In this document: in pieces, positions 2,183 through 24,397 of the stretch
Layout of the letters: each line of letters begins with the position of its first letter
How positions within the stretch are numbered: position 1 is the first letter of the stretch
IMG/VR virus record: IMGVR_UViG_3300046751_000216
Span: 1 to 29,194 of that record
Length of the DNA: 29,194 bases
DNA from: a virus
Direction: 5' to 3' (one strand)
Notes under the pieces: generated by a model
The model's database searches: none
Told to the model about the DNA's origin: nothing
Seen by the model: the letters and a program-made list of their open reading frames with translations, nothing else
Position numbers and translations under genes: made by a program

Positions 2183-3790
2183 TTAAAATTCTATGTCATC
2201 CTTATCTTCATCAAAGATTGTCTCAGTCATACGTCCTGTATCTGTATCGTATAACAGTGAACAACATAGTCCTGTCTCGCCTGACCACCTGTTCTTCAGA
2301 ACTCTGACGTGGCTGACGTGAGGATTGTCTTTGTCTTGTTGGTCTCGCTCTAATCCAATCACCATATCACTAAGCTGACCGATTGCTGCTGAACCACGTA
2401 GCTGAGAGAGTGAAGTCTGTGCGCCATCCTCATGTCCTCTGTCACCAGAGGGACGCTTCAAGTGTGACACTAGTATCAGTCCACAGTTTAACTCCTCAAC
2501 CAACGCACGTAAACGTGTCATTGTGTTATCAATAAGTCTCCTCTCATCTCCACCTTCTAGTCCACTGACTACGATACTGATGTGGTCAAGGATAATGTAG
2601 TCACACCCACAACCATGCACTAAGTATCTTATCTTGTCAAGTAGATTATCACTATCAGTAGAACCCCAATGGTCATAAAGGTATACTCTACCAGTTCCAA
2701 GTGTAGCATCGAAAGCATGTTTCAACTCCTCTTCTGGCACACTATTGTTATGTAAGTGCAGGGGCTTGTTCATCTCAAGAGACATCAAGCCTAAGGCAGT
2801 ACGCTTTATACTTTCTTCTAGAGCAATGTACCCTAGTGTCCTACCATTCCTGATTAGGTTATGTGCAAACTCACGTGCAAGCTGCGACTTCCCTATACCA
2901 GAACCAGCAGTCACTGTGGTTATCTCACCTCTGCGACAGCCCCCTGTTTTCTCTTGCATACCTATGTATGGATAAGGTACTGAGTCTTTACTGTCATCCT
3001 CAGTTACAATGTCCCACACATCTGTACCTGCTACGATACCATCAGGTCTGAATGTCTTAGCTTCCCATACAGCATCGACTAGTTCCTTGACCCTACCTGC
3101 TTGTAACATTTCGTTAGCATCCTTCAATGGAAGGGTAGCTATCTTACATTTGTTAGGTGGTAGTACTGAGGCACAATCCTTTGCTGCCTTCTGACCTACC
3201 TCATCCATGTCAAACATAAGTACTACGTACTCATACTTGGACAACCACTCAATAGATTTACCCAACGCTTTCTTAGCAGAGGTACACCCTGAGGGTAGAG
3301 ATACTACAGGCCACTTGTTATCCATCACCTGTGATAGGGACATAGCATCTAGCTCACCCTCACATATAGTAATGAACTTACCACCCTTACCATCTCTCCA
3401 TAGATGCTCACCATACAGGCCAACATCTTTAATGTTACCAACAACAGAGAAGTCCTTGTTGGCAAACCTAATCTTTTGTGCTGCTAAATCTCCAGCCCTG
3501 CTGCGATAGTTAGCAACCTGTACCTTCTGTCCCTTGTAATCAGAAACACCATAGCCCCAGAACTGGCAAGTCTTTTGAGAGATACCACGCTTAAGTAAAT
3601 CCCTGTACTCTATGTCCAAGAAGGCAGTGTCATGTGTCTCAAACTTTGCCATAGCTTCCTCATTGTTAGCTGGTGTTAGTGTCTGGCAAGAGAAGCAGTA
3701 GTGTTTACCATTGCTATACAAAGCGTTGGCATCACTACTGCCACAGTGAGGACAGGCTACGTGCCTGATAAACTCACCATCCTCAACCAT
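2183..3790 (-). CDS. T7-like bifunctional primase-helicase
   Basis: A T7 gp4-like protein of 535 aa from the ATG at 3790. A TTG at 3808 would add six residues; both starts overlap the upstream gene. In order it has a zinc-binding primase finger (CPHC and CFSC, cysteines near 13, 16, 32, 35) and a TOPRIM primase core (CEGELDA, Glu near 144; FDMDE, Asp near 194 and 196). A RecA-type hexameric helicase follows, with Walker A AGSGIGKS (295-302), Walker B YIILDH (Asp near 402) and VSHLKRP. The C-terminus is acidic and ends in Phe (DEDKDDIEF). In T7 gp4 such a tail docks on DNA polymerase. It unwinds DNA and makes primers. It lies directly upstream of the polymerase gene, as in T7. Confidence 0.95.
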   Translation of the reverse strand: MVEDGEFIRHVACPHCGSSDANALYSNGKHYCFSCQTLTPANNEEAMAKFETHDTAFLDIEYRDLLKRGISQKTCQFWGYGVSDYKGQKVQVANYRSRAGDLAAQKIRFANKDFSVVGNIKDVGLYGEHLWRDGKGGKFITICEGELDAMSLSQVMDNKWPVVSLPSGCTSAKKALGKSIEWLSKYEYVVLMFDMDEVGQKAAKDCASVLPPNKCKIATLPLKDANEMLQAGRVKELVDAVWEAKTFRPDGIVAGTDVWDIVTEDDSKDSVPYPYIGMQEKTGGCRRGEITTVTAGSGIGKSQLAREFAHNLIRNGRTLGYIALEESIKRTALGLMSLEMNKPLHLHNNSVPEEELKHAFDATLGTGRVYLYDHWGSTDSDNLLDKIRYLVHGCGCDYIILDHISIVVSGLEGGDERRLIDNTMTRLRALVEELNCGLILVSHLKRPSGDRGHEDGAQTSLSQLRGSAAIGQLSDMVIGLERDQQDKDNPHVSHVRVLKNRWSGETGLCCSLLYDTDTGRMTETIFDEDKDDIEF

Positions 3791-4031
3791 CTTCTTGTGC
3801 GTCCTCAAGTATGTCTACCATACGTGCTAGACCCCTACGAATTTTGTCTAGTACCTCAGGTGGATACTTATCCTCATCCTGTACCATCAGGTATGCCATG
3901 TCACTGTAATCAACATGCTCATATATCTCAGCCTCATCTACATAGACAGAGATAGCTATACCATCCTTGTTGAACTCAGCTTGGACATCAATCTCAGATA
4001 CAATCTCTTCTGTAATATCTACAATACTCAT
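3783..4031 (-). CDS. Small acidic protein of unknown function
   Basis: An 82-aa, strongly acidic protein that I do not recognise. It has no Cys, no membrane segment and no obvious motif; the C-terminal half could be helical (VLDKIRRGLARMVDILEDA). The start at 4031 forms an ATGA overlap with the stop of the 62-aa gene, and its 3' end overlaps the primase-helicase start, so it is embedded in a translationally coupled replication operon. Tight packing is the main reason to believe it. The acidity could suggest DNA mimicry or a partner of a basic protein, but nothing in the sequence shows this. Confidence 0.7.
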   Translation of the reverse strand: MSIVDITEEIVSEIDVQAEFNKDGIAISVYVDEAEIYEHVDYSDMAYLMVQDEDKYPPEVLDKIRRGLARMVDILEDAQEDG

Positions 4032-5211: not shown

Positions 5212-6861
5212 TTATGCAAAGAAGTACTGTGACTTTAGAACCTCACGTAAATCTAAGTTACCTTTACTTGGTGGAACAGGAACATCCTGTGTACCAAGCA
5301 CTGTTATAGCATGGTCTCTCAACTCAGTCAAGACATCATGCTGTTCGTACATATTAACAAACTCCTCACGTAGTACCTCAGATAGCATAGGCATGTTGGT
5401 TGAGTGTGTACCATAGCTGTCGTGTACCATTGCGTAGTCCTCAATACCAAGCTTGGTTGCTCTGTTAATAGTCTTGGTCATAGCTGCTGCATCCATAGAG
5501 TGTATGAAGTTAGGGCTACTACCCAAGCCTGTACGCTTACGATGCACTGCGTTGTCTCTATCCTTAGGAAAGGACAGCGATACAGTGTTACCGTTGATGT
5601 GTGTCTTAATCCTTTTACTGTCTGTTTCGTTGTAGTTCTGTAGCACTAGCCAGCCTGTAGGTGTGACCCATTCCATGTGCTTGTTGTGGTCTGAGTACAC
5701 ATCTGCTACATCCTTGATGTATGTCATCACCTCTCTTGCTGATACAATCACATCTGATATAGCATCCCATACATACTTTGACAAGTAGGTAGATGCCTCA
5801 AACAAATCATCACCGAATGGATTAGCTTCTCCCTTGTTTATCTTGTCTTGCATTGCTTCCTCAATGTACTGCCTACATGCGTGACGTGTACCTGAGTAGG
5901 GTACTATCATAACAGGACGCTTGGCTATCTTCCTGTCTATACCAAACTCTAAACACTTACGTGCTAGTTCTGTGTCATCCTCTCGTACCTGACGTATAGC
6001 TTCTTGTGCTACCTGTGTGTAGATATCTTGAGGTAGTTCAGATGCTGTGAGGTTGGTAGCCCTACCCCCTTGCTCATCCCTCAGTATAGCTGACAGGTGC
6101 TGTAGTCCATTGCATGACCCATCTGCTGCACAGGGTAGACGTGTCTCAAATCCCCAGCCCTGTCTGACTAGGGCTGACATCTCATAGCACCACGAAAGAA
6201 ACTGGAAGGGTTTGTCTGCTTCTAACCATATCGTGTAATCATATGGGTTAGCCACTACCCTATGAGCATCAGTCTCTGCAAACTCCCATGCCCATCTCTC
6301 TCGCTCGTCCAAGGATACCTTGTCGTTACCAAACAGGTTAGCACCGTGAATACACAACCATCGTGCGTCATCCCAACTGTTGATGGTCACAGGGTAGCTA
6401 AACTCTAGCAGTGCCTTGCTCCAATCTGCTGACTGAGTAGAGAGAAACGTGCTGGATGCGTACTTGCGTGAACGAAAGTCGTTCTGCCATACATAGTAGA
6501 ACCTATCATACTTGCTGTACTGTTCTGCTATCTTTAGTGTACGCTCCACCTGCACACGCTTGCTCATGCTGCGATTGTTTAAGGAGTAGATTTGATTACG
6601 CTTGCGTGACCACGTGCGAAACACATCCCTCTCTTGCTCAGTCATCTCTTCAGGTTCTTTATCAAATGGGTATGGTGGTAGAGGTAAGTCCTCTTTAGCT
6701 GGTAGGTTACCCACCTGATGTCCATTGTCCCACAAGTTACGTGTGACTTCCAGTACCTGCTTGTTAATACGCCACTCAGTACGCTGTAGTGTGTTAAGAC
6801 AGGCATACTCTTGTGTCAAGTCTTGCTTACGCAATCTATTTAAGTGTGTCTTTAAACTCAT
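5212..6861 (-). CDS. T7-like RNA polymerase, C-terminal catalytic part (split gene)
   Basis: A 549-aa protein matching T7 RNA polymerase from about residue 302 to the end, finishing with the characteristic FFA (T7 FAFA). Catalytic residues are present: D247 in CAADGSCNGLQH (T7 D537), K314 and Y322 in AKRPVMIVPYSG (T7 K631, Y639), and D481 in MVHDSYG (T7 D812). The specificity loop (about 405-435) differs from T7 at the key positions: K419 sits where T7 has N748, and Leu where T7 has Q758, so promoter recognition should differ from T7. The start ATG at 6861 overlaps the stop of the N-terminal ORF as ATGA. GAGG five bases upstream gives it a ribosome site. Together the two parts total 814 aa, against 883 in T7. 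Confidence 0.93.
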   Translation of the reverse strand: MSLKTHLNRLRKQDLTQEYACLNTLQRTEWRINKQVLEVTRNLWDNGHQVGNLPAKEDLPLPPYPFDKEPEEMTEQERDVFRTWSRKRNQIYSLNNRSMSKRVQVERTLKIAEQYSKYDRFYYVWQNDFRSRKYASSTFLSTQSADWSKALLEFSYPVTINSWDDARWLCIHGANLFGNDKVSLDERERWAWEFAETDAHRVVANPYDYTIWLEADKPFQFLSWCYEMSALVRQGWGFETRLPCAADGSCNGLQHLSAILRDEQGGRATNLTASELPQDIYTQVAQEAIRQVREDDTELARKCLEFGIDRKIAKRPVMIVPYSGTRHACRQYIEEAMQDKINKGEANPFGDDLFEASTYLSKYVWDAISDVIVSAREVMTYIKDVADVYSDHNKHMEWVTPTGWLVLQNYNETDSKRIKTHINGNTVSLSFPKDRDNAVHRKRTGLGSSPNFIHSMDAAAMTKTINRATKLGIEDYAMVHDSYGTHSTNMPMLSEVLREEFVNMYEQHDVLTELRDHAITVLGTQDVPVPPSKGNLDLREVLKSQYFFA

Positions 6862-7655
6862 CTACGCCTCACTATAGGTAGCTTGTTAATGTCGTGACCA
6901 TGATAACCACCACCTGTTACATCTGTCCAATCCTTAGGGATGATAACACATGGTAGTAGTCTAGGTCTGTGTGTCTCAGCAAAACTATTGAACGCATCAA
7001 TCCATTCTACTGTGTCTGTCTCAGGTACTACATAGGTGGTCTTGCTTGTACGTTTAACCTGCTGTGTGTTCAGCTTTATAATACCTGTACTCTGGATGAT
7101 AAGGTCTACCATCTTGAAGCCTACATGTACACGCTCTGACTGTTGCCATGTGTTCTCCTTGTATCCATCCTTATTCATCTTGTTAGTCAAGCCGTAGCGT
7201 CTAGCACCATAGGCTTTCTTCATAGCTTGCTTGATTGTGTTACGTGCTATGTCACCCTCGTCTGCTATCCACCTGTCCAGCCTGTCTTGTATCTCAATGG
7301 CTGACCCAATGCTTCTAGCTATGTACATCAGTGTGTTCTTTCTACTGATGCTATCAACCAGTGTGACTAGACTGAGGTATGCCAACTGTTCTGGATGTAC
7401 ACCCTTCACTCTCTTCCACGCTATGTCTCGTGATGTATTGCTTGGATTGTCCAACCATTCTCGTATAGCTACGGTCATGTCATCCACTAGCCTAGCTATG
7501 ATAGCCCTGCCGTGCAGAGTGTGGCTCTCTTTACCACGTTCTATTGCTGCATCACGTTCCTTTCTAAATCTTTCTATGCCACCTGTCATCATCTCAGTTT
7601 CTAACTGTAGCTGGTGGTCAATAAGGTCTTGGTCTGTTTCTAAAGTTACATCCAT
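6858..7655 (-). CDS. T7-like RNA polymerase, N-terminal part (split gene)
   Basis: A 265-aa protein matching T7 RNA polymerase residues ~30-300, the N-terminal domain that handles promoter AT-rich recognition and RNA exit. Shared landmarks include EQLAYLSLVTLVD (T7 PEAVAYITIKTTL), RSIGSAIEIQDR (T7 SAIGRAIEDEAR), RVHVGFKMVDLIIQSTG (T7 IHVGVRCIEMLIESTG) and PKDWTDVTGGGYHG (T7 PKPWTGITGGGYWA). It ends at IVRRR where T7 continues LVRTH. The TGA overlaps the ATG of the catalytic ORF by ATGA, and no homologous residues are missing at the join. A single added base would fuse the two frames, so the split is either genuine or a one-base indel or sequence error. The start ATG at 7655 has a GGGGG site seven bases upstream. 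Confidence 0.92.
   Translation of the reverse strand: MDVTLETDQDLIDHQLQLETEMMTGGIERFRKERDAAIERGKESHTLHGRAIIARLVDDMTVAIREWLDNPSNTSRDIAWKRVKGVHPEQLAYLSLVTLVDSISRKNTLMYIARSIGSAIEIQDRLDRWIADEGDIARNTIKQAMKKAYGARRYGLTNKMNKDGYKENTWQQSERVHVGFKMVDLIIQSTGIIKLNTQQVKRTSKTTYVVPETDTVEWIDAFNSFAETHRPRLLPCVIIPKDWTDVTGGGYHGHDINKLPIVRRR
6860..6882 (+). promoter_or_regulatory. T7 consensus promoter look-alike at the RNA polymerase split, antisense
   Basis: The plus strand reads TACGCCTCACTATAGG at 6863-6878. Aligned to the 23-bp T7 class III consensus it matches 17 positions, including all of CTCACTATAGG. It would fire rightward, antisense to the N-terminal polymerase ORF. It overlaps codons for the conserved segment ending IVRRR. 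The phage polymerase specificity loop differs from T7, so function is doubtful. Confidence 0.25.
7639..7653 (+). promoter_or_regulatory. Inverted copy (D) of the candidate phage promoter, inside RNA polymerase start
   Basis: The plus strand reads TCTAAAGTTACATCC, matching copy B at the terminase end over all 15 bases and copies A and C over 13. It is the only copy pointing rightward and lies within the first codons (MDVTLE) of the RNA polymerase N-terminal ORF. If active, it would oppose transcription of the early block. It could also be a coincidence of coding sequence. Confidence 0.35.
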
Positions 7656-15820: not shown

Positions 15821-15969
15821 TACTTATCCTTCCACATTTGGTATATCTTAAAGGCAAGATACGTTATAGACATTACCCCCACTACCAAAGCTACCCATTC
15901 GTTTAGAGCAGGTAACCACAGAGGTGCAGATAAACCACCAGCAGCTATAGCTAAATCGTTCTGGTTCAC
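15820..15969 (-). CDS. 49-aa single-pass membrane protein, holin-like (GTG start)
   Basis: The GTG at 15969 overlaps the previous stop (GTGA), with GGAG eight bases upstream. The protein has an Ala/Gly/Pro-rich N-terminus (AIAAGGLSAPLWLPALNEW), a transmembrane helix (VALVVGVMSITYLAFKIY) and a short basic end (QMWKDK). Size, place and topology fit a pinholin or antiholin of the T7 gp17.5 class, alongside the larger holin candidate at 14617. It is the first gene of the lysis block after the fibre genes. Confidence 0.6.
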   Translation of the reverse strand: MNQNDLAIAAGGLSAPLWLPALNEWVALVVGVMSITYLAFKIYQMWKDK

Positions 15970-16451
15970 CCTGCAATCTCCGTAATACTTAAAATGCTAG
16001 GATTGCTGTTGTTCTGTGCAGTCAAACTTGTAGAAGAACTTTTGAACGCTCTAACTGTGTAGGTTGTTGAACTTGTGCTAGGTGCATCAATATAAGCGTG
16101 AATAGGCATCCTAGTAGAATACGCTTCGTTGTTGTCACCATTGAAATAATACCCGCCACCATTGTCAGTATATATAATTGATGAGCCATCATATATTTCA
16201 AGACTGAAATTGGGGTCTGCGGAATATCCTGTTCCAAAATGTACAGTGCCTGTTAATAACAATTTGTTGCTAGTTGACGCAGGAATAATTGTTGCAGTCA
16301 GACCAGTGGATGTGCCGCTACCTTTTGTATTAGATGTAATGCTTGTGCTGGTACTAAAACTGTTAGAAACTACCTGCAACACAGTACCACTAGGCAACCC
16401 TGCGCTAGTAACAGCAGACAAAGACTGATTGTTTAGTTTAATAAGTGCCAT
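15966..16451 (-). CDS. Small fibre or receptor-binding protein, Ser/Thr-rich
   Basis: A 161-aa protein, MALIKLNNQSLSAVTSAGLP then a beta-rich Ser/Thr body with repeats of short strands (SNKLLLTGTVHFG; SSIIYTDNGGGYYFN; TTYTVRAFKSS). The 'LNNQSLSAVTSAGLPSGTV' opening is common in small tail-fibre proteins of marine phages. The body resembles a jelly-roll. It is the last gene of the fibre cluster and follows the C1q-like fibre, with AGGAGACTGAC before the ATG, a leader shared with the 331-aa fibre gene. Confidence 0.7.
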   Translation of the reverse strand: MALIKLNNQSLSAVTSAGLPSGTVLQVVSNSFSTSTSITSNTKGSGTSTGLTATIIPASTSNKLLLTGTVHFGTGYSADPNFSLEIYDGSSIIYTDNGGGYYFNGDNNEAYSTRMPIHAYIDAPSTSSTTYTVRAFKSSSTSLTAQNNSNPSILSITEIAG

Positions 16452-16460
16452 GTCAGTCTC

Positions 16461-17333
16461 CTATCCTATTAAGTAGCCTTGAAAGTGTGGCGTACCTTCG
16501 TCTGCGGTTGCATATTGGTACAAATACAAATTAGATACATTTACCCTAATGTAATCATTAGCTGTCATTTCTGTTATAAACGATGTGTGAGCAGGTAAAT
16601 ACGAAGTAATATTAGTGTAAGCGTAATATTCTCTAGCTATATCCCAAGTTGAAGCATCTGAACTGGTTTCAAAATCTACTATTATTGTTCCTGTTGTTGT
16701 GCCGCCATTAGAACTACAAGCAAAAGCATTTAACATAAAACAATAAAGTCCAGTTACAGGTGCTTTAAAATAATGATTGGTTGTATCGTAATAGTTTCCA
16801 GTATTAAATATTGTACTGTTAAATTGTATTACACCATTAATACCCCCTGCCGTACCTATTCTTCTCATACTAAAAGCTGGTCTAGCTGGTGTAAGAATAC
16901 GACCAGTGCTATCAATAGTCATGGCAGTGTTAGTGCCAGCCGCATCACGAATAGTACCGACATCAAGATTGCCAGACACCGCTATGTTAGTGTCCAGCTT
17001 GGCAGATGTCACAGCACCGTTACCAATCTTGTTAGTCGTAATAGCCCCATCAGTAACCGTCTTAACAGCCAGCACATCACCCAGCGCAACAACAAAGTCG
17101 ATGCTGTCTGAGCCTGTCAGTGGGTCATCAAACACTAGGTCAGAACCTGACACTGTGAAGCTGTCCTGTGGTGCTTGAATAACACCGTTCAGAGATACTA
17201 GCAGTTGGTTAGCACTCTCTGGGTAGTATGCCGCAGAACCTAGCGTCAAAGCGTAGGTGTCTGTAGCAGAAGCAGTAAGGTTGTCTAGCTTATGGAAGCC
17301 ACCGCCTACTGGATTTTTACCTATGTATGGCAT
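16461..17333 (-). CDS. Tail fibre protein with C1q/TNF-like C-terminal domain
   Basis: A 290-aa protein. Residues 1-95 form an N-terminal adaptor (MPYIGKNPVGGGFHKL ... LLVSLNGVIQAP), and residues ~95-150 carry the fibre repeat GAVTSAKLDTNIAVSGNL. Residues ~150-290 look like a C1q-type jelly-roll (FNTGNYYD, YFKAPVTGLYCFML, HFQGYLIG). The adaptor and repeat are shared with the 300-aa protein at 18512-19414, but the C-terminal domains differ, so the two look like duplicated, diversified adhesins. Its start overlaps the stop of the 56-aa gene as TAATG. Confidence 0.75.
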   Translation of the reverse strand: MPYIGKNPVGGGFHKLDNLTASATDTYALTLGSAAYYPESANQLLVSLNGVIQAPQDSFTVSGSDLVFDDPLTGSDSIDFVVALGDVLAVKTVTDGAITTNKIGNGAVTSAKLDTNIAVSGNLDVGTIRDAAGTNTAMTIDSTGRILTPARPAFSMRRIGTAGGINGVIQFNSTIFNTGNYYDTTNHYFKAPVTGLYCFMLNAFACSSNGGTTTGTIIVDFETSSDASTWDIAREYYAYTNITSYLPAHTSFITEMTANDYIRVNVSNLYLYQYATADEGTPHFQGYLIG

Positions 17334-17503
17334 TAGTCTGCATCCTGTATTGTGTTGCCGTCAGCTACCCATTCTAGGATAGCCGCATAGTGGCGGTTGG
17401 CTGTGTCAAGTGGAACGAACATCTCTGTGCCGTCAATGGTGGCCTTTACGCCAGATTGATTGCCGTCAGGGTCATTGTAATATTGTGCATTTGTAATGTT
17501 CAT
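17333..17503 (-). CDS. 56-aa conserved tail-region protein
   Basis: A short ORF: MNITNAQYYNDPDGNQSG, then VKATIDGTEMFVPLDTANRH and YAAILEWVADGNTIQDAD. The 'IDG....VPLD..NRHY..IL.WV..GN.I.' pattern is a familiar small protein placed among fibre genes in many phages. The C-terminal half is where tail-fibre assembly proteins of similar size show conservation. GGAG is eight bases before the ATG, and its stop overlaps the next start (TAATG). It may be a fibre assembly factor or a small virion part. Confidence 0.75.
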   Translation of the reverse strand: MNITNAQYYNDPDGNQSGVKATIDGTEMFVPLDTANRHYAAILEWVADGNTIQDAD

Positions 17504-17505
17504 TT

Positions 17506-18501
17506 TTATAACTCCGCATCCAGCGTTGCGTTCATATTGCCAGAAGAATTCCCAGTTCCAGTTCCATATCCGTATACTGGGTAACTTCCTGTATTTCCAA
17601 GCTGAGAATTAACCCCAAAGGTAGTTGAAAAAGTGTCACCCAAACTGGTGGTTGCTGGTGTTGTCCTCATATTTACTTCATGCCCAGATACAAAAGTACC
17701 GTCACTTCTCGTTATAAACGACTCATGAAACGCCTGATAATACCTCTGACACCTAGCCAACTCATCGCCATAGCTACGATGCTCAAACGGTGTGGCCTCG
17801 CCTAGTTCTAGCTGTACGCCTGTGATGTAAAACTCAGGTGATGTGCTTTCTAACCAGCCCGTTGTGTCATAGACACGGGTGTTGTTCACATTAGCCGCCC
17901 AAGATGTACCAAATGTGCCGCCTGTCCAATCTGTTCCAGCATCTAACCAAAAAGTTAAATCAAGGCTTCTAGCGTTATCATTATCTAGTGCGCCTGTCGT
18001 ATCACCAGCAAAAGTTACTGTTTTCTTTTCCCAAGTGTTTGTTGCAGATACTATATAGCTTGCAGAAATAACCCTAGTGTTGTCACTGTCATACAGATTG
18101 ATACTGTATGTACTAGCAACACTAGACTTTACCCAAAAGGATAAGGTCAATGACTTTGCAGATGATGTACCTTTTGCTAGTTGTTGTAAGTCTTGGCCTT
18201 CAAATCTTTGTGCAATATTAACTTGGTCAGCCGCATCAAGTGATGCTTCTGATGCGTCCATGCTTATTTTTTGTGAGTAAGCAAATCCCTGCCCAGACGG
18301 TACATCTGTTGACCTATCTACATCTATGTTTCCATCAGTACCAGAATGAGCGATGCGCCAACGGTCACAGAAATAGTTACCGCTAGTGATTGTGTCAATC
18401 GTAGTGCCTCTTTGCCACACCTGCATCGCACCATTGATGATAAGATTTCTTGCCCCTGCATATTGCTCTTGAGAGGCTGGTAGTATTTTTGATAATGACA
18501 T
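17506..18501 (-). CDS. Receptor-binding or tail fibre protein with carbohydrate-binding-like domain
   Basis: A 331-aa protein starting MSLSKILPASQEQYAGARNL. The segment NLIINGAMQVWQRGTT...CDRW is a widespread phage structural motif. It is followed by a beta-sandwich-like region (SLTLSFWVKSSVASTY, KKTVTFAGDTTG, LDLTFWLDAG, FYITGVQLELGEATPFEHR) like that of carbohydrate-binding modules, then LARCQRYYQAF and a Gly/Ser/Thr tip. The ATG at 18501 has GGGAGACTGAC before it; an in-frame start at 18522 lacks a site. It probably contacts host surface glycans. Confidence 0.75.
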   Translation of the reverse strand: MSLSKILPASQEQYAGARNLIINGAMQVWQRGTTIDTITSGNYFCDRWRIAHSGTDGNIDVDRSTDVPSGQGFAYSQKISMDASEASLDAADQVNIAQRFEGQDLQQLAKGTSSAKSLTLSFWVKSSVASTYSINLYDSDNTRVISASYIVSATNTWEKKTVTFAGDTTGALDNDNARSLDLTFWLDAGTDWTGGTFGTSWAANVNNTRVYDTTGWLESTSPEFYITGVQLELGEATPFEHRSYGDELARCQRYYQAFHESFITRSDGTFVSGHEVNMRTTPATTSLGDTFSTTFGVNSQLGNTGSYPVYGYGTGTGNSSGNMNATLDAEL

Positions 18502-18511
18502 GTCAGTCTCC

Positions 18512-19414
18512 CTATGCGTCATCTGTCAAATAGGTCATAGACCATATTGACTGGCTGTTTAAATTAGAGTGTGAGGATGATACAACATTGGTAACTCCAA
18601 GAGCATAAGGGTAGTTACAATGAACTTGCTTTGTATTATAAACTCCAATCCCTTGAAAGGGATACCCATATCCGCTACCGTCCCAGCCATTTAATGCAGC
18701 AAAATATCCGCAATTCGCAATCGGATAGTAGCCTGTTAAGTTAGCTACTGTAAAAGGAAGCCCAGAAAAACTAAGTTGCCCAGTACCACTTGAGCCATTA
18801 GTGTAAGAAAAAGAACTAGCTGGGGTTTGGTAATGCCACTGAACATTAACTACATTACCAACTCTTTGATACCATCCAAGTTGAACTGCTGGTGTTCCTG
18901 TATGAATAGTAGCGTTTGTATCAGTAGCTGATTGGTCTGATAAAATTGGTGTCCATGTACCAGTTCTATAAAAAGCGTTGCTATTTAAATCAGTCATCTT
19001 AAAGTTACTGCTAGAAACATCTAGCGTACTATTAACATCTAATGTGCCAGATGTCGTTAATGTCCCAGTAACAGCAATGTTTGTGTCTAACTTTGCACTT
19101 GTAACAGCACCACTAGCCAACTTTGCGCTAGTAACAGAACCATCAGGCGGCACTACAGTCTGCAATGCCAGAGAGTTATACACCACATAGATATCGTCAG
19201 AAGCAACTACATCGCCTGTTAGCGTTACAGCTGTATCAGCCACAGTGTACGCAGTAGTAGGCTCTTGTTTTACATTGTTGATATAGAGGTCAATATCTTC
19301 TTCTTTGCTAACAGCATGAGTAAGCGTAAGAGTATCGCCAGTTGCCCCTGTCAAGTCTTGCTTGGTAGGACGCTGGACAAAGCCCTCTGCTTGTTGATTA
19401 CCAATGTAACCCAT
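18512..19414 (-). CDS. Tail fibre protein, adaptor plus variable tip
   Basis: A 300-aa protein. The adaptor (MGYIGNQQAEGFVQRPTKQD ... DIDLYINNVKQEP) is followed by two copies of the short repeat (VTSAKLASGAVTSAKLDTNI), a TLTTSGTLDVNSTLDVSS stalk and a beta-rich tip from ~150 to 300 (GTWTPILSD ... GWYQRVGNVVNVQWHY). The tip pattern 'GTWTP ... G.Y...G..V.....' is typical of phage receptor-binding tips. It is paralogous to the 290-aa fibre in the first half only. AGGGAGG precedes the ATG. Confidence 0.75.
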   Translation of the reverse strand: MGYIGNQQAEGFVQRPTKQDLTGATGDTLTLTHAVSKEEDIDLYINNVKQEPTTAYTVADTAVTLTGDVVASDDIYVVYNSLALQTVVPPDGSVTSAKLASGAVTSAKLDTNIAVTGTLTTSGTLDVNSTLDVSSSNFKMTDLNSNAFYRTGTWTPILSDQSATDTNATIHTGTPAVQLGWYQRVGNVVNVQWHYQTPASSFSYTNGSSGTGQLSFSGLPFTVANLTGYYPIANCGYFAALNGWDGSGYGYPFQGIGVYNTKQVHCNYPYALGVTNVVSSSHSNLNSQSIWSMTYLTDDA

Positions 19415-19425
19415 AGTCAGCCTCC

Positions 19426-19761
19426 CTAGATAGAAATGTCATCAACAGCAGATACCCAAACATCTAGTGAGCTTGCAGTGTCTGATTTTACCCAGAGCCT
19501 GTCACCTGATTGGACTACTACTTTTGCACCACCATCAAGTACCTGTAGCGCACCGCCAGCGGCAATAGGCGCACCCTTGATTAGATAGATGTCGTTAGTG
19601 CCATCATTGATGTAGCAGTCTACATTGATAGCGTTGCTTGTTATGTTAGTCATGTGGATACCTACAATCGTATCGTAGCTATCAAAGTCAGCCCCATCAG
19701 GAATATCTGCGGCTGATGTGCCTACAGCGTTGAGGCTGTAACGTCTAAAATTCTGTGCCAT
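19426..19761 (-). CDS. Small beta-rich virion protein in fibre cluster
   Basis: A 111-aa protein: NFRRYSLNAVGTSAADIP, DSYDTIVGIHMTNITSNAIN, a short loop, and GDRLWVKSDTASSLDVWVSA. This pattern is known to me from many phages as a small structural protein that often sits near fibres. Similarity in style to the 103-aa protein at 13439-13750 is limited to the beta-strand and Trp pattern. AAGGAT lies before the ATG. It may be an adaptor that joins the fibre anchor to the adhesins. Confidence 0.7.
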   Translation of the reverse strand: MAQNFRRYSLNAVGTSAADIPDGADFDSYDTIVGIHMTNITSNAINVDCYINDGTNDIYLIKGAPIAAGGALQVLDGGAKVVVQSGDRLWVKSDTASSLDVWVSAVDDISI

Positions 19762-19770
19762 AATATATCC

Positions 19771-21036
19771 TTATAAAGCGATTGACATAGCGATTGCAAA
19801 ACCAGAAGTAGTACCAGCTTCAATAGCTGTCCATTGTACGTCTGTTGTATTATAAACTTTTAATTTTTTTGCGGATGTATCGTAAAACAACGCACCATCT
19901 ATTAACGGATTACCGTCATTGTCTAGTGAAGGCTCTGCTGATTTGTGGCCTAAATACGTGTCATCGAAACTGTCTAAAGTACTAGATGCTTGTTCTGCAT
20001 AATACTTTGCAGAATGAAATGTGCCATCAACAGTATTGCTACCACTTACATAGCTAGCCCAATCTTTAGCAGAACCACCACCAGATAAACCACGTCTTTG
20101 TGTACCAATAGCATACTCTTTAGCAGAGTACTCAGTACCATCTACTGTAGCTGTAGTCTTAGTAGACCACTCTTCTGATGCACCTGCACCTGATTGGTTA
20201 GTAACACCTGTACCACCTGTAGCCCATGCCTTAGATGAGTAGCCTGTACTGTCTACAATACCATTAGTCTTCTCTGCCCAATCTTCTGCAAGTGTCTCAG
20301 ACGTTGCTGCATTAGTTGCAGAGGTAGCAGCATTAGTTTCGCTAGTAGCCGCATTAGTAGCAGAAGTAGAGGCGTTACCTGCCTGTGTCGTAGCTGTAGT
20401 TGCGCTTGTGGCTGCACTAGTTGCAGAGTTAGACGCATTGGTAGCCTGTGTGGTAGCTGTTGAAGCACTGTTAGATGCACTCGTAGCTGACGTTGCAGCA
20501 TTGCTCTCGCTAGTGGCGGCATTAGAAGCAGATGTGGCAGCAGCAGATGCTGAGTTAGCAGCAGCCGTTGCACTTGCAGCAGCAGCACTTGCTGAACCTG
20601 CTACATTGTCTACGTATGCCTTAGTTGCACCATCGGTACTAGCTGTAGGCGTACCTACGTTTTTAATAATCTTACTCTGTGCATCCCACTTATCGTCAGC
20701 ATCTAGAGTAATACCATCGTTAGCTTTGTCTACAGCTTCCTGTGCAGCATGGAAGGTCTGGATGTTAGAGTTATCCAAATCTTCCTCAGTTAGTACTGAG
20801 CCAGATGCAAAGTCTACTGAACGTGCTGTAAGGTCTGTGGTTCTCCGCACCTGCACAAGCGTACCTGAAGCAGGGGCAGAGGTTAATTGAACACTAGCAG
20901 CAGAAGGAAAAGTTAGGCCAGATTCAGCCACACCGTCTACTGTTACACTAATCTCAGACTGAGCAGTGTAGTCAAAGGGAATAGCGAAAGTGTCAGTCGC
21001 ATTATCCCCTGTATAGTTTTGATATGAAAAAGCCAT
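19771..21036 (-). CDS. Tail fibre anchor protein, T7 gp17 N-terminal type
   Basis: A 421-aa protein. Residues 1-145 are the T7 gp17 N-terminal tail-attachment domain (YTGDNATDTFAIPFDY, ISVTVDG, LTSAPASGTLVQVRRTTDL, VLTEEDLDNSNIQTFHAAQE, KIIKNVGTP). Residues ~146-252 are an Ala/Ser/Thr/Asn low-complexity stalk with repeats such as SATNAATSETNAA. The remainder carries three 'W...YS.AK.YA' repeats and a final LFYDTSAKKLKVYN segment common at fibre ends. It lacks a large C-terminal receptor-binding domain, so the adhesins made downstream probably supply binding. A candidate phage promoter lies just upstream. Confidence 0.85.
   Translation of the reverse strand: MAFSYQNYTGDNATDTFAIPFDYTAQSEISVTVDGVAESGLTFPSAASVQLTSAPASGTLVQVRRTTDLTARSVDFASGSVLTEEDLDNSNIQTFHAAQEAVDKANDGITLDADDKWDAQSKIIKNVGTPTASTDGATKAYVDNVAGSASAAAASATAAANSASAAATSASNAATSESNAATSATSASNSASTATTQATNASNSATSAATSATTATTQAGNASTSATNAATSETNAATSATNAATSETLAEDWAEKTNGIVDSTGYSSKAWATGGTGVTNQSGAGASEEWSTKTTATVDGTEYSAKEYAIGTQRRGLSGGGSAKDWASYVSGSNTVDGTFHSAKYYAEQASSTLDSFDDTYLGHKSAEPSLDNDGNPLIDGALFYDTSAKKLKVYNTTDVQWTAIEAGTTSGFAIAMSIAL
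20280..20600 (-). repeat. Ala/Ser/Thr codon repeat of the fibre stalk
   Basis: About 320 bp of degenerate GCN/ACN/TCN repeats inside the fibre gene, giving the SATNAAT-type stalk. The shared base pattern keeps long open frames on the plus strand and in the other minus frame; these are shadows. Repeats like this recombine and can change stalk length. Confidence 0.75.
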
Positions 21037-21053: not shown

Positions 21054-21078
21054 TTAGTCAATGATGTAACTTTAGGTT
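21054..21078 (-). promoter_or_regulatory. Candidate phage RNA polymerase promoter (copy C, before tail fibre)
   Basis: The minus strand reads CCTAAAGTTACATCAT at 21061-21076, right after the stop of the gp16-like gene and 25 nt before the fibre start; 22 of 25 bases equal copy A. T7 promoter phi17 occupies the same place. Confidence 0.6.
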
Positions 21079-24000
21079 AGTCTGCTCCATACTTAGCAGA
21101 TAAGTAATTTAAGCTTTGATTGATACCATAAAATTTAGCCATAGGTATAGCGTTCTTAAATGTTCTCAGTTCTGTTTCAGAAAATTTACCATCTGAAATA
21201 TCATCACCTAGTCCTAAAAAAGCCTGAAAAATGTTATAAGCTGGTGGTGTAAAGCCATTACTTGTTCCTGTAGCAGTTCCTGTTACCATTTGAAAAGCTA
21301 GTGCAAATATAGATGCAGCACCTACTTGACTTATAGCACCCATAGTAAACCTGTCCCAAGCCATCTGTCTCTTAATATATTCGTCAGCATCACTACGTCC
21401 AGCAGCATTTAACTGTACTCTAGTAGTGTATAGTAAACTACCCCATAGCATAGAAGCAGTCATTAACTTTGTTATGGCTACAGCTTCTCCTGTCATAGCT
21501 CTTCTTCCTAGACGTGCTGTCTGTTGTTCAAGAGCAGCTAAAGGAAACGAAAGAAACTGTCCAAATATCTGACCAACAGTGGAACGTAACACATAGTTCA
21601 TAGAGCCTATATTTACTTCCTGTACATTCTGAGTAGTTTCTCTTAACAAAGACATAGACCAAGCTTCAGCAGCTTCTTTGTCTGTCCACTGGTCTACATT
21701 CATATAGTCTAATTCACCATCTGGACGTAGCTTTGCTCCTGTTTGTGGGTCATTTATAGCATTAAATATACGTCTTTGCATAACAGGGTTTATGCCCTGT
21801 TGTAGCATCTTAGTTTCACTGAAAGGTGCTTTACCTTTCCTAGCTGAATCAAACCATTGTTGAGTATAGTTAAACATTGTTAAGCGTCTATTAAATGCTG
21901 TAACAGGCAGAAGACCACTACCTAATGATACTGCTTTTGAAATTTTGCCTAATGTTTCATCTACTTTAGTAGTTCTAAAAATACTAGGTTCTAAGGCAGA
22001 CTCAGCGTCAAAACGAGTAGCACGATTAACAGAAGCTGTAAGGATTTCTTCTCCTTTACCACCTGTAATAAACACTAACTCTCGCATAGCTTTAGAATCT
22101 AGTTGACCGTCTGATGCTCTTTTGTAAAACTCTCTTAGTCTTGACATGCTTTTAAAGTTAGTCTTAAGTGAGTATTCTAATAAAGAGTTTGTTACTTCCA
22201 TCAAAGCGGATAGACCAGCCATTGGCATCATTGCAGCATAAGTAAACTGTTTAGCTCTTCGTACTGCTAATTTTACTGATTCAGGTGAAGTATCTTTAGC
22301 ACCTAATCTACCTGTCATACCATCATACATAAACTGCATGGCTTTTAATTCTTCAGTAGTATTTGTGTAACCTTTTTCAGCAGCATGGTCTGTGACTTTT
22401 TTAACTACATCATCCCAAGAAGAGCCTACAACATTTGTGTCAATACCTACTTTTGCTAGTCCGTAAGCTCCAGCCATTTGAAAATTGTAAGCGTTTTGTA
22501 TAGTTTGAATATTGTTTTCTAGTAGGTCAGTAAACCGTAATGTTTGAATATTGCCGTTTACATCTACTGCATCAATAGTAGCCATCTCATTTAGAATAAC
22601 ACGAGGCTGTGTACGTTTGTGCTTTCTTACTGTAGCATCTTTACTTAAGAAATATACAGCATCGTTAATTTGGTCACTATTAATGCCAGCAGTAAGCATG
22701 GCTTGTTCTAACTCTTCAACATCAAAGGGTCTGCTAAGTACCACACCACCTGAAGCGTAAGGTCTACTTAAAACAGTCTTAGTATAACCTGAAGCCATAG
22801 CGTCAATGTAGTTTTTAACATCTTCTGGTGAAGCTTCTTTACCTGTTCTTTTAAGTATGCTCTCTGCTATCTCTGTAGCTATGTCAGGTTGTGCCTCTAT
22901 TATAGCTTTTCTAACTAAAGAAGATACTATAGTAAGACTTTCTTCCATACCAAACCTACGTCTAACTGCATCAATACCTTCATCAGAAAACAAACGAGCC
23001 AGATAAGTACTTGGGTCAATCCTTCCTTTTGTCAATAGTTCTTCAGTAAAGCCAGCAGCATTAGCCTTAATGTTGTCTTCTAAGAAACGTCTATTAGCTG
23101 TAATAATTTTATCAGCTACTTCTCGTACCTCAGGCGCAACAGTTCTATCGTTTGCTCTGATAGCCATAGTTACAGCTTCATCAAAGTCTTCTTGCTTTCC
23201 ACCTGTTCTTTTTTTCCAAGCTGCAAATGGTTTCTGATAAGCTGTTTCAAACTCTAAAATACCCTGTCCCTCTCGTTGCATCTTATACTCAGTAGCAGCA
23301 GGGGCAACAGGGGGAACAACACCTGTTTCAGGGTCAGGTGAATGTCCTCTACTAGTTAATCCTAGTTTATCTGTAAAGTACCTAGTAAAGGCATTGTCTG
23401 ATTTCATACCTTTTGATTGAGAAGAAAACCAACTACGTACAGCAGTAAACATGTCATCTTGTTGAGGAGCAGCAGCCGCAGCTTGAGCTTCAGTTACGTT
23501 AGTAATAGGAGAGTTTAAATCTATATCATCAGATAACATTCGAGAAGCTTCTGCCTCTTCTAACGCTCTCTGTGCTGTTACAGGACTGTCCACACTATCT
23601 AAAAAAGCTAACTCATTAGATGTTAAAGGTGTACCTGATTCGTACTGTTTAAGTAGGTTCTGGTACTCTTTCTTTTTACGCATTGCTGTAGACACACTAC
23701 TAATACTACCACTAAGAATAGTAGAGGCAGCCATAGCAATGGCTACATCTCCACCTGTGATGTCATACTTATCTGTAGCTCTAATACCTTCAAAGATACC
23801 AGCTTCAGCAGCACCTACACCAGCACCTATCTTAAATGCTCTACTTACGTTATAAGCTTTTTTACCCAAAGCTATACCGCCAACCTGAGGTGCTATAGTA
23901 GTGGTAACACCAATAGCAGCAAGCTCTGGTAAATCTGTCAAAGCTGCCACAACTGTAGCAAAAGTACCTTTACCGCCAGCACTAGCAAGAAGTTCTCTAT

Positions 24001-24397
24001 TTGATTGAGTTTTTTTATAATCTTCTGCTAGTGCTTGGGCGTTTGAAAGGCTACTATTTATGGCTGTGTCTGTTACTTCTTGTATTGCTCTTGTGTCAGT
24101 TAAACCTTCTGTAAGGCTCTCCATTAACTCAGGTGTCATCTCTTTAACTGGTTCGTATGAATTATTTGTCATACGATTAGCTATAGATGCTACACTATTT
24201 AGTATGCTGTTTTCTTTAGCAGCAACACCGTACAAGAAGTTAAAGCTGTGGTCAGGAGCATTACGCTCTCTAGCAAGCTCTAGTTCTCTAAGTTCATCTC
24301 CTGTTATGTATTCTACAACAGGTCTAGGAACTTCTGTAGATATGTCAAAGCTGTCAAACAACTTATCCATAGGGTTTAGAACTTCATTCTCAGCCAT
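21077..24397 (-). CDS. Internal virion protein D, T7 gp16-like
   Basis: An 1106-aa protein in the gp16 position. The N-terminal part has Gly/Ala-rich hydrophobic helices (IGVTTTIAPQVGGIALG; DVAIAMAASTILSGSI). The C-terminal third shows the pattern typical of gp16 relatives: REFYKRASDGQL, TQNVQEVNIGSMNYVLRS, QIFGQFLSFPLAALEQQ and PPAYNIFQAFLGLGDD. T7 gp16 is ejected at infection and forms the channel for DNA entry; it also starts with a lytic transglycosylase domain of about 150 residues. I see no such domain here, and the protein is about 210 aa shorter than T7 gp16. GAGGAAACTT precedes the ATG. Confidence 0.85.
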   Translation of the reverse strand: MAENEVLNPMDKLFDSFDISTEVPRPVVEYITGDELRELELARERNAPDHSFNFLYGVAAKENSILNSVASIANRMTNNSYEPVKEMTPELMESLTEGLTDTRAIQEVTDTAINSSLSNAQALAEDYKKTQSNRELLASAGGKGTFATVVAALTDLPELAAIGVTTTIAPQVGGIALGKKAYNVSRAFKIGAGVGAAEAGIFEGIRATDKYDITGGDVAIAMAASTILSGSISSVSTAMRKKKEYQNLLKQYESGTPLTSNELAFLDSVDSPVTAQRALEEAEASRMLSDDIDLNSPITNVTEAQAAAAAPQQDDMFTAVRSWFSSQSKGMKSDNAFTRYFTDKLGLTSRGHSPDPETGVVPPVAPAATEYKMQREGQGILEFETAYQKPFAAWKKRTGGKQEDFDEAVTMAIRANDRTVAPEVREVADKIITANRRFLEDNIKANAAGFTEELLTKGRIDPSTYLARLFSDEGIDAVRRRFGMEESLTIVSSLVRKAIIEAQPDIATEIAESILKRTGKEASPEDVKNYIDAMASGYTKTVLSRPYASGGVVLSRPFDVEELEQAMLTAGINSDQINDAVYFLSKDATVRKHKRTQPRVILNEMATIDAVDVNGNIQTLRFTDLLENNIQTIQNAYNFQMAGAYGLAKVGIDTNVVGSSWDDVVKKVTDHAAEKGYTNTTEELKAMQFMYDGMTGRLGAKDTSPESVKLAVRRAKQFTYAAMMPMAGLSALMEVTNSLLEYSLKTNFKSMSRLREFYKRASDGQLDSKAMRELVFITGGKGEEILTASVNRATRFDAESALEPSIFRTTKVDETLGKISKAVSLGSGLLPVTAFNRRLTMFNYTQQWFDSARKGKAPFSETKMLQQGINPVMQRRIFNAINDPQTGAKLRPDGELDYMNVDQWTDKEAAEAWSMSLLRETTQNVQEVNIGSMNYVLRSTVGQIFGQFLSFPLAALEQQTARLGRRAMTGEAVAITKLMTASMLWGSLLYTTRVQLNAAGRSDADEYIKRQMAWDRFTMGAISQVGAASIFALAFQMVTGTATGTSNGFTPPAYNIFQAFLGLGDDISDGKFSETELRTFKNAIPMAKFYGINQSLNYLSAKYGAD

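Follow-up and report, generated by a model that had tools for sequence, protein, structure and literature searches.

In the Klebsiella KP32-like, G7C and K1-5/SP6-like phages, an anchored receptor-binding protein (RBP) is accompanied by further RBPs, which are reported to be held by conserved N-terminal peptides as short as seven residues (PMC6872550). Tail spikes without a distal receptor-binding domain, which probably carry an overlooked tip protein, are reported for Dhillonvirus, Traversvirus and Littlefixvirus (PMC12309495). The locus described here lies in IMG/VR virus record IMGVR_UViG_3300046751_000216, which was analysed whole as a window of 29,194 bases. Its gp17-like anchor fibre ends in the peptide GFAIAMSIAL, called the plug below, and the next gene encodes a protein of 111 residues, p111, which is followed by a cassette that includes the adhesins p300 and p290. 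The region probably encodes a multi-part receptor-binding apparatus that is joined by short terminal tags and would be carried on virions. The surprising part is the pairing of plug and p111, a strong association from which we infer binding, branching and presence in the virion.

The locus resembles the KP32, G7C and K1-5 anchor-branch systems in having an anchored first protein, short conserved N-terminal peptides (MxYIG) and exchangeable parts, which here are predicted from sequence. In those systems, as the cited account presents them, the others are held through a T4gp10-like domain, which lies in the first RBP or in an adaptor protein, whereas here the joint would consist of the fibre plug and a separate small protein. 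No T4gp10-like domain was present among the Pfam matches and 25 of the 37 PHROG matches, a result that does not include an HHpred-type search against T4 gp10. A fibre-like protein without a tip is shared with Dhillonvirus, Traversvirus and Littlefixvirus, in which it is described as the central spike of a non-contractile tail. As with T7 gp17 (PF03906), the fibre has an N-terminal attachment domain and its gene comes after one for a gp16-like internal virion protein (21077-24397), but the fibre of the window closes after the stalk without a recognised tip. In the long tail fibre of T4, a dedicated piece, the hinge (gp35/gp36), joins the proximal and distal parts. The likeness to this hinge lies in the use of a dedicated joining piece and in an annotation in phage PhiW-14, given below; no homology between p111 and the T4 hinge is claimed.

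The same order of plug fibre, p111 and adhesins with a YIG motif is found in the pelagiphages HTVC035P, HTVC100P, HTVC203P and HTVC019P and in the SAR116 phage HMO-2011, and relatives of two further cassette proteins, p331 and p56, occur in HTVC100P, HMO-2011 and Melnitz-2. The pelagiphage and HMO-2011 cassettes differ in their tips. Their proteins carry the labels hypothetical, structural or tail protein, and none of the records that were read names a connector. Searches of the open literature, covering titles, the beginnings of abstracts and the tag sequences, returned no description of a C-terminal anchor-fibre peptide with a separate small connector common to podoviruses and myoviruses. 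To our knowledge, little has been established about the way in which phages that infect SAR11, SAR116 and other abundant marine bacteria carry and alter their receptor-binding parts. A tag of ten residues from which the partner gene can mostly be predicted offers a way to find anchors and adhesins that are annotated as hypothetical.

The attachment domain of the fibre was recognised by PF03906 at residues 3-143 (E 2.3e-31; 109.1 bits against a cut-off of 25.2). This is its sole Pfam domain, no receptor-binding tip was recognised at the C-terminus by Pfam, and the chain closes with a stalk, a short conserved module and the plug. This agrees with an earlier, sequence-only reading of the window, which had seen in the protein an attachment domain and stalk only. 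All 25 aligned gp17-like C-termini close with GF[AS]IAM[AS][IV]AL, and the module that precedes this peptide differs among them. The plug consensus was defined on these first 25 ends; better tests are provided by scans that start from the motif and by seven phage records added later. The plug also ends the HMO-2011 fibre and, with one change, the Hodr fibre, in which the N-termini are unrelated, and a variant, ALSIALG, closes the protein encoded just upstream of p111 in phages OspM_OC and S-TIM5. GFAIAMSIAL shows the alternation of large hydrophobic with small residues that is seen in beta strands. Along the whole plug, synonymous codon use varies freely; selection therefore acts on the peptide, and an RNA or translation signal behind the conserved end is ruled out. 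Grouped by their N-termini, the 217 complete plug-bearing proteins form 28 clusters without detectable similarity. Clustering of whole bodies placed 254 of 258 plug proteins in one cluster, probably through their repetitive stalks, and N-terminal clustering was used instead.

The contexts of p111 were drawn from viral contigs, with 80 loci kept of at least 589 relatives of p111 and 80 kept of 187 relatives of p290. Together with the window and three phage loci, these gave 116 loci once forward-strand overlaps were removed. One locus (L004) is a reverse copy of the window, which was counted once in the context counts of plug and p111 and in the N-terminal clustering. All counts are of sequences, not of independent lineages. 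Outside the loci that the motif had fetched, p111 directly follows a protein that ends in the plug in 102 of 103 contexts (98 by regular expression and 4 with IPFAIALG); all 103 have an upstream open reading frame (ORF) and a p111 match with E < 1e-15, and part of these loci supplied the consensus. The lone exception is HTVC100P, in which an endonuclease VII gene sits between p111 and a fibre that ends in GFSIAMAVAL. The first, strict regular expression matched 79 of 94, and its misses are variant tags, apart from HTVC100P (L001). When motif-fetched loci are included, 6 of 310 contexts were dropped for want of an upstream ORF and 24 of the remaining 304 were set aside for E above 1e-15; the plug is present in 277 of the 280 that are left.

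The converse also holds in most cases. Two degenerate DNA scans of viral contigs for the plug returned at least 119 and at least 120 stretches, and of the testable matches listed (99 and 92), 96 and 80 have p111 as the next gene, where testable means placed in a long ORF with enough downstream DNA. A control with the plug in reversed order returned 21 stretches, none within an ORF of 100 residues and none before p111. Whole phage records (17, 1.56 Mb) contain nine matches to the strict plug patterns, one in each of nine records and all directly upstream of p111; the patterns written backward gave no match in the same records, and the other records carry variant plugs. All seven of the later phage records have a plug-like end before p111, two of them weak (S-SRM01 and PhiW-14), and on genome contigs the plug precedes p111 in both cases with upstream DNA, a third contig being cut at p111. 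A second regular expression ends 46 of 5411 other long ORFs of the loci. For these, p111 is next in 21 and the contig ends in 11; the 14 that are left are the HTVC100P fibre, one locus (L349) with another p111-like gene between, and 12 cases already known to be without p111. We regard the bare association of plug and p111 as very nearly certain.

Two contexts of p111 stand apart. In the Delftia phage PhiW-14 (L464), the plug-like end right before the p111 homologue belongs to gp63, which is annotated as the gp36 hinge connector of the long tail fibre. In L453, p111 and a plug-bearing neighbour are found on a 275-kb contig of the SAR11 single-cell genome SAG-MED28, perhaps as a provirus or a co-amplified phage.

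Relatives of p111 are predicted by AlphaFold2 to form a beta sandwich of eight or nine strands, with most blocks of the p111 part at a predicted local distance difference test score (pLDDT) above 85. The best solved structural match is the trimeric cement protein of KHP40 (7dou_4; Z 10.0, rmsd 3.1 over 107 residues). Unrelated proteins with a comparable fold reach Z 8 to 9.8, values that are common for this fold, and the C-terminal domain of the tail fibre of Agrobacterium phage 7-7-1 matches at Z 7.7. Among predicted viral structures, the nearest ones with a name belong to uncultured and cyanobacterial phages and are called virion structural proteins. Relatives of p111 match PHROG families 26609 and 1276, which have no known function. 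A profile search found no solved relative of p111, its one match being at chance level (E 0.071), and an NCBIfam scan of p111 and the other cassette proteins of the window gave no family, with one meaningless match to gp17. HMO-2011 (49067-49375), CRP-13 (49601-49903), 023Pt_psg01 (48743-49063) and S-TIM5 (3686-3964) each have a second p111-like gene, a distant relative that is well separated from the fibre genes. In five loci (L107, L113, L135, L178 and L195), some 100 inserted residues interrupt p111 and bring the protein to 224 residues; the plug-bearing neighbour is kept in L107, L113 and L135.

The adhesins p300 and p290 share roughly their first 140 residues. The common N-terminal adaptor claimed in the sequence-only reading is borne out by an alignment of 149 columns (34.9%, E 1.7e-16) and by the presence of GAVTSAKLDTNIAV in both translations. 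The claim that one of the tips is C1q-like also stands, given that PF00386 matches p290 above its cut-off at residues 153-205 (E 6.8e-6, 26.7 bits against 23.7, profile positions 1-55 of 127). Relatives of the adaptor of p300 (AdA, 43 proteins) carry tips of 17 clusters, and those of the adaptor of p290 (AdB, 62 proteins) carry tips of 16 clusters. Where two adaptors are at least 80% identical, the tips are without detectable similarity in 108 of 120 pairs for AdA and in 1316 of 1482 for AdB. Most adaptors this similar carry dissimilar tips, as expected of the modular set with swappable tips that had been proposed; in relatives, the tips are exchanged on a retained adaptor. The G+C content at third codon positions in p290 drops from 42.8% across its adaptor to 20.0% across its tip. 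Receptors would be bound by the tips.

An N-terminal motif marks the gene that follows p111. The loose form, M-x(1-4)-[YFH]-[ILVG]-G, opens the first ORF after p111 in 90 of 97 contexts not fetched by the plug and in 119 of 135 that were, and it opens 9 of 804 control ORFs upstream of the plug protein; the strict form, M-x(1-3)-Y-[IL]-G, is found in 53 of 97, 90 of 135 and 4 of 804. Among 77 loci with at least 5 kb of downstream DNA, ORFs with the motif number two in 44, one in 17, three in 1 and none in 15, and on the upstream side 73 of the 77 have none. The next gene has [YFH][IL]G near its start in 22 of 24 phage records; CRP-143 has YTG and S-SRM01 none. The motif appears in HTVC010P only from an earlier start and in 023Pt at residue 10, and it is present in two of three genome contigs. 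Melnitz-2 has two p111 genes, and a protein of 211 residues encoded between them carries both the N-terminal motif and the plug; proteins tagged at both ends are rare, with 2 candidates among 242.

A comparison is offered by fibres in which these parts are fused. In P-GSP1, P-SSP3, S-RIP2, SS120-1 and NATL1A-7, five of the eight cyanopodoviruses listed and the five that were checked, the gp17 N-domain, the gp17C module and the adaptor all lie in one long fibre chain (5/5). The gp17C match stops before the plug positions, and the adaptor match stops before the YIG positions. A search of those five records with p111 returned nothing at E 0.1, and the same query matched 17 of 17 other phage records. 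The simplest reading is that p111 and the two tags would do the work that a peptide bond does in the fused fibres.

The following arrangement is proposed. The gp17-like protein would attach to the tail by its PF03906 domain, as its homology indicates, and ends without a recognisable tip. The plug, which is observed to pair with p111, would be received by it, such that p111 would cap or extend the fibre. In a weaker step, which follows the observed pattern of motifs, p111 would present adhesins that open with M-x-Y-[ILV]-G, here p300 and p290. The linked proteins p331 and p56 would be an optional pair that is exchanged together, with p56 probably helping p331 to fold or assemble, and p161 would be the constant last member. 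Because only the short tags and the adaptor need to be kept, the tip could be replaced without touching the anchor, and the tags offer a physical reason for the movement of tips between phages of different tail types. The earlier reading of a modular set of adhesins is correct in outline, and its suggestion that they are branched on one fibre could be made concrete by p111, to which that reading had given no special role and which pairs with the C-terminal peptide of the fibre and with the N-terminal motif of the adhesins. A physical link between plug and p111, with p111 as a connector, is judged probable.

Several observations weigh against this arrangement. Two AlphaFold2 single-chain models, in which plug, natural spacer and p111 were read through with stop codons as Q, both fold p111 well but show the plug as a helix of low confidence (block pLDDT 48 to 66) with no docked strand. 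This counts mildly against simple docking on a p111 monomer, lends it no support and says nothing on the trimer. Phage fibres are normally trimers. The plug may dock in p111 as a donor strand. Two strong p111 matches (L349 and L378) are preceded by another p111-like gene and not by a plug. Weak p111-like matches (E 8e-15 to 1e-4) follow the plug in only 9 of 24 cases, so the pairing is a property of p111 proper rather than of all its distant relatives. Among the motif matches listed, 191 were testable, and 15 of these are without p111 as the next gene; among 14 of the 15 that were inspected, 6 stand before a gp13-like neck gene, 5 before another beta-rich family and 3 before other genes, and the plug may have partners besides p111. 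The first ORF after p111 is without the N-terminal motif in 7 of 97 and 16 of 135 contexts, several of these being near variants. In addition, 184 of 200 proteins with the motif fall in one adaptor cluster; because most of them share the adaptor, the motif is weaker evidence than the plug and may be the mere start of an adaptor domain.

Two groups of loci have the plug beside other genes. In L304, L312, L328, L330, L334 and L396, a plug-bearing fibre-like protein is followed by a gp13-like gene, with no adjacent p111; we take this gene to resemble the T4-type neck protein gp13. In L183, L224, L227, L308 and L389, the gene after the plug belongs to a beta-rich family (MKKRITTYTFD.../MAKRQIRDYVFSPG...), which is possibly a second kind of plug partner. 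With hhalign, no homology of this family to p111 was detected.

The adhesins might not branch from the fibre at all, and p300 and p290 might instead dock on the tail hub themselves by adaptors that are diverged gp17 attachment domains, a reading that is compatible with reception of the plug by p111. A gp17N profile matches the adaptors of HMO-2011 (7e-10), Melnitz-2 (1e-7) and S-RIP2 (0.0024), and hhalign relates AdA to gp17N with E 2.7e-5 and a probability of 74%. The adaptors are probably distant relatives of the gp17 attachment domain, so that they may dock directly on the tail. Melnitz-2, a member of the Kyanoviridae described as T4-type, has the same order of p111, AdA, p331, p56 and AdB, which also counts for hub docking. 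However, Pfam PF03906 matches neither p300 nor p290, and the hhalign match of AdB to gp17N is weak (E 0.024). In the fused cyanopodovirus fibres, the adaptor lies far downstream in the chain rather than at the tail-binding N-terminus, and tandem adaptors in Melnitz-2 suggest a structural repeat. Docking of the adhesins on the hub is considered doubtful.

Rather than remaining as a connector, p111 might be a transient chaperone or cap that sits on the C-terminal peptide during trimerisation of the fibre and then leaves, with the adhesins attached elsewhere. Fibre chaperones are often encoded directly after the fibre, as p111 is, and the plug forms the extreme C-terminus of the fibre. Transient chaperone caps have been proposed for the fibres of Alteromonas phages (PMC10579305), and this report is counted in favour of such a role. 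Against it, relatives of p111 are annotated as structural protein or virion structural protein in entries of pelagiphages, cyanophages, rhizobial phages and a Microcystis phage, and in HTVC019P and HTVC010P the p111 relative is named structural while the surrounding genes are called hypothetical. A chaperone that departs is an unlikely explanation for p111.

Co-inheritance is expected of adjacent genes, and the plug could simply be the last strand of a common fibre terminus that travels beside p111 without binding it. Consistent with this, the gp17C profile, which includes the plug, also matches 78 of the 94 upstream proteins, and this too weighs against a dedicated pair. But the terminal peptide is common to the 28 dissimilar N-terminal groups, and the 16 of 94 without a gp17C match still end in the plug or a variant, the inserted gene of HTVC100P apart. 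Moreover, the nine strict matches in the 17 whole records all precede p111, and the fused fibres examined are without the plug and without a p111 match in their records. Mere neighbourhood is judged improbable. It is more improbable still that p111 is a capsid decoration (cement) protein that sits by chance in a fibre operon, as its best structural match and the distant p111-like genes elsewhere in HMO-2011, CRP-13, 023Pt and S-TIM5 might suggest, given that unrelated proteins of the same fold score nearly as high and that the p111 gene stays between fibre and adhesin genes in podoviruses and myoviruses.

With p111 as a connector, a more general plug-and-socket code can be envisaged. A C-terminal plug on almost any virion protein and a p111 socket might allow receptor-binding modules to be added, linked in series and exchanged in unrelated tailed phages (T7-like podoviruses, HMO-2011-like podoviruses, and T4-related and giant myoviruses). 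The YIG tag would receive the next module, and proteins with both tags, such as the 211-residue protein of Melnitz-2, would be extension pieces. The chances for and against so general a code seem to us evenly balanced.

The remaining cassette proteins show further linkage. The genes for proteins of 111, 300, 331, 56, 290 and 161 residues that had been listed after the fibre gene are all present at those lengths, and p331 may also be read as 338 residues from an ATG seven codons upstream, the start chosen by the ORF finder. Of 44 loci, 11 have both p331 and p56, 33 have neither and none has one alone. The 22 complete relatives of p331 all end in EL, mostly DAEL, and p56 is next in 18 of them, such that the two look like a single exchangeable unit. 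The proposal that p56 is an assembly partner is supported as far as its presence is tied to that of p331 (44/44 loci); a role beyond this linkage did not emerge from the analysis. The p56 homologue of Melnitz-2 is annotated as a tail assembly chaperone, and p56 itself has no noteworthy match in Pfam or NCBIfam and weak matches to PHROG families of unassigned function. The C-terminus [AS]EL (17509-17517 in the window) is found on p331-type proteins and also on proteins of HMO-2011, Melnitz-2 and RHph_Y65, and it may be a further terminal tag, perhaps for a p56-type partner.

The order p111, AdA, AdB, p161 is kept in 38 of the 44 loci that have all four, with p161 last. The idea that p161 is one of the swapped tips is rejected, since the C-terminal parts of 56 relatives form one single-linkage family. 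As had been noticed, p331 and p161 have a common leader: GGAGACTGAC stands directly before both and occurs exactly twice in the window. A similar sequence, GGAGGCTGACT, precedes p300. Over the 116 loci, the exact leader is found at 19 of 69 p161 starts, 5 of 18 p331 starts, 0 of 165 YIG starts and 0 of 82 p111 starts, and before 24 of 1161 first-ATG ORFs of at least 100 residues. The shared leader is real and more than chance. The features of the cassette are collected in Table 1.

Table 1. Features of the fibre and adhesin cassette, in window coordinates (aa, amino acids)
Feature	Position	Strand	Remarks
gp17-like proximal (anchor) fibre, 421 aa	19771-21036	-	attachment domain and stalk, no tip found; PF03906
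Plug peptide GFAIAMSIAL, fibre C-terminus	19774-19803	-	paired with p111
p111, 111 aa, small jelly-roll-like protein, proposed connector (socket)	19426-19761	-	AlphaFold2 on relatives
N-terminal motif MGYIGN of p300	19397-19414	-	loose motif common in first ORF after p111
p300 adhesin, 300 aa: adaptor AdA (about residues 1-135) and exchangeable tip	18512-19414	-	
Leader GGAGACTGAC before p331	18502-18511	-	
p331, 331 aa, tail-fibre-like, ends DAEL; apparent optional module paired with p56	17506-18501	-	phrog_4492 (tail fiber), E 6.7e-62
p56, 56 aa, small p331 partner, perhaps assembly factor	17333-17503	-	
N-terminal motif MPYIGK of p290	17316-17333	-	
p290 adhesin, 290 aa: adaptor AdB (about residues 1-143) and C1q-like tip	16461-17333	-	
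C1q-like match PF00386 in p290	16719-16877	-	
Leader GGAGACTGAC before p161	16452-16461	-	
p161, 161 aa: conserved leader peptide at the N-terminus (MALIKLNNQSL), C-terminal parts of one fast-evolving family; last cassette gene	15966-16451	-	

The other genes of the window are those of a T7-like podovirus, with DNA polymerase, primase/helicase, RNA polymerase, terminase, endolysin and internal virion proteins on the minus strand. A search of a phage collection with the first 24,999 bases of the window found no near relative, and in a distant DNA search with the cassette the pelagiphages HTVC100P, HTVC203P and HTVC035P top the list. The phage RNA polymerase is present as two ORFs on the minus strand (5212-6861 and 6858-7655) that overlap by ATGA and match phrog_414 at positions 2-266 and 271-816, which is either a true split or an assembly frameshift.

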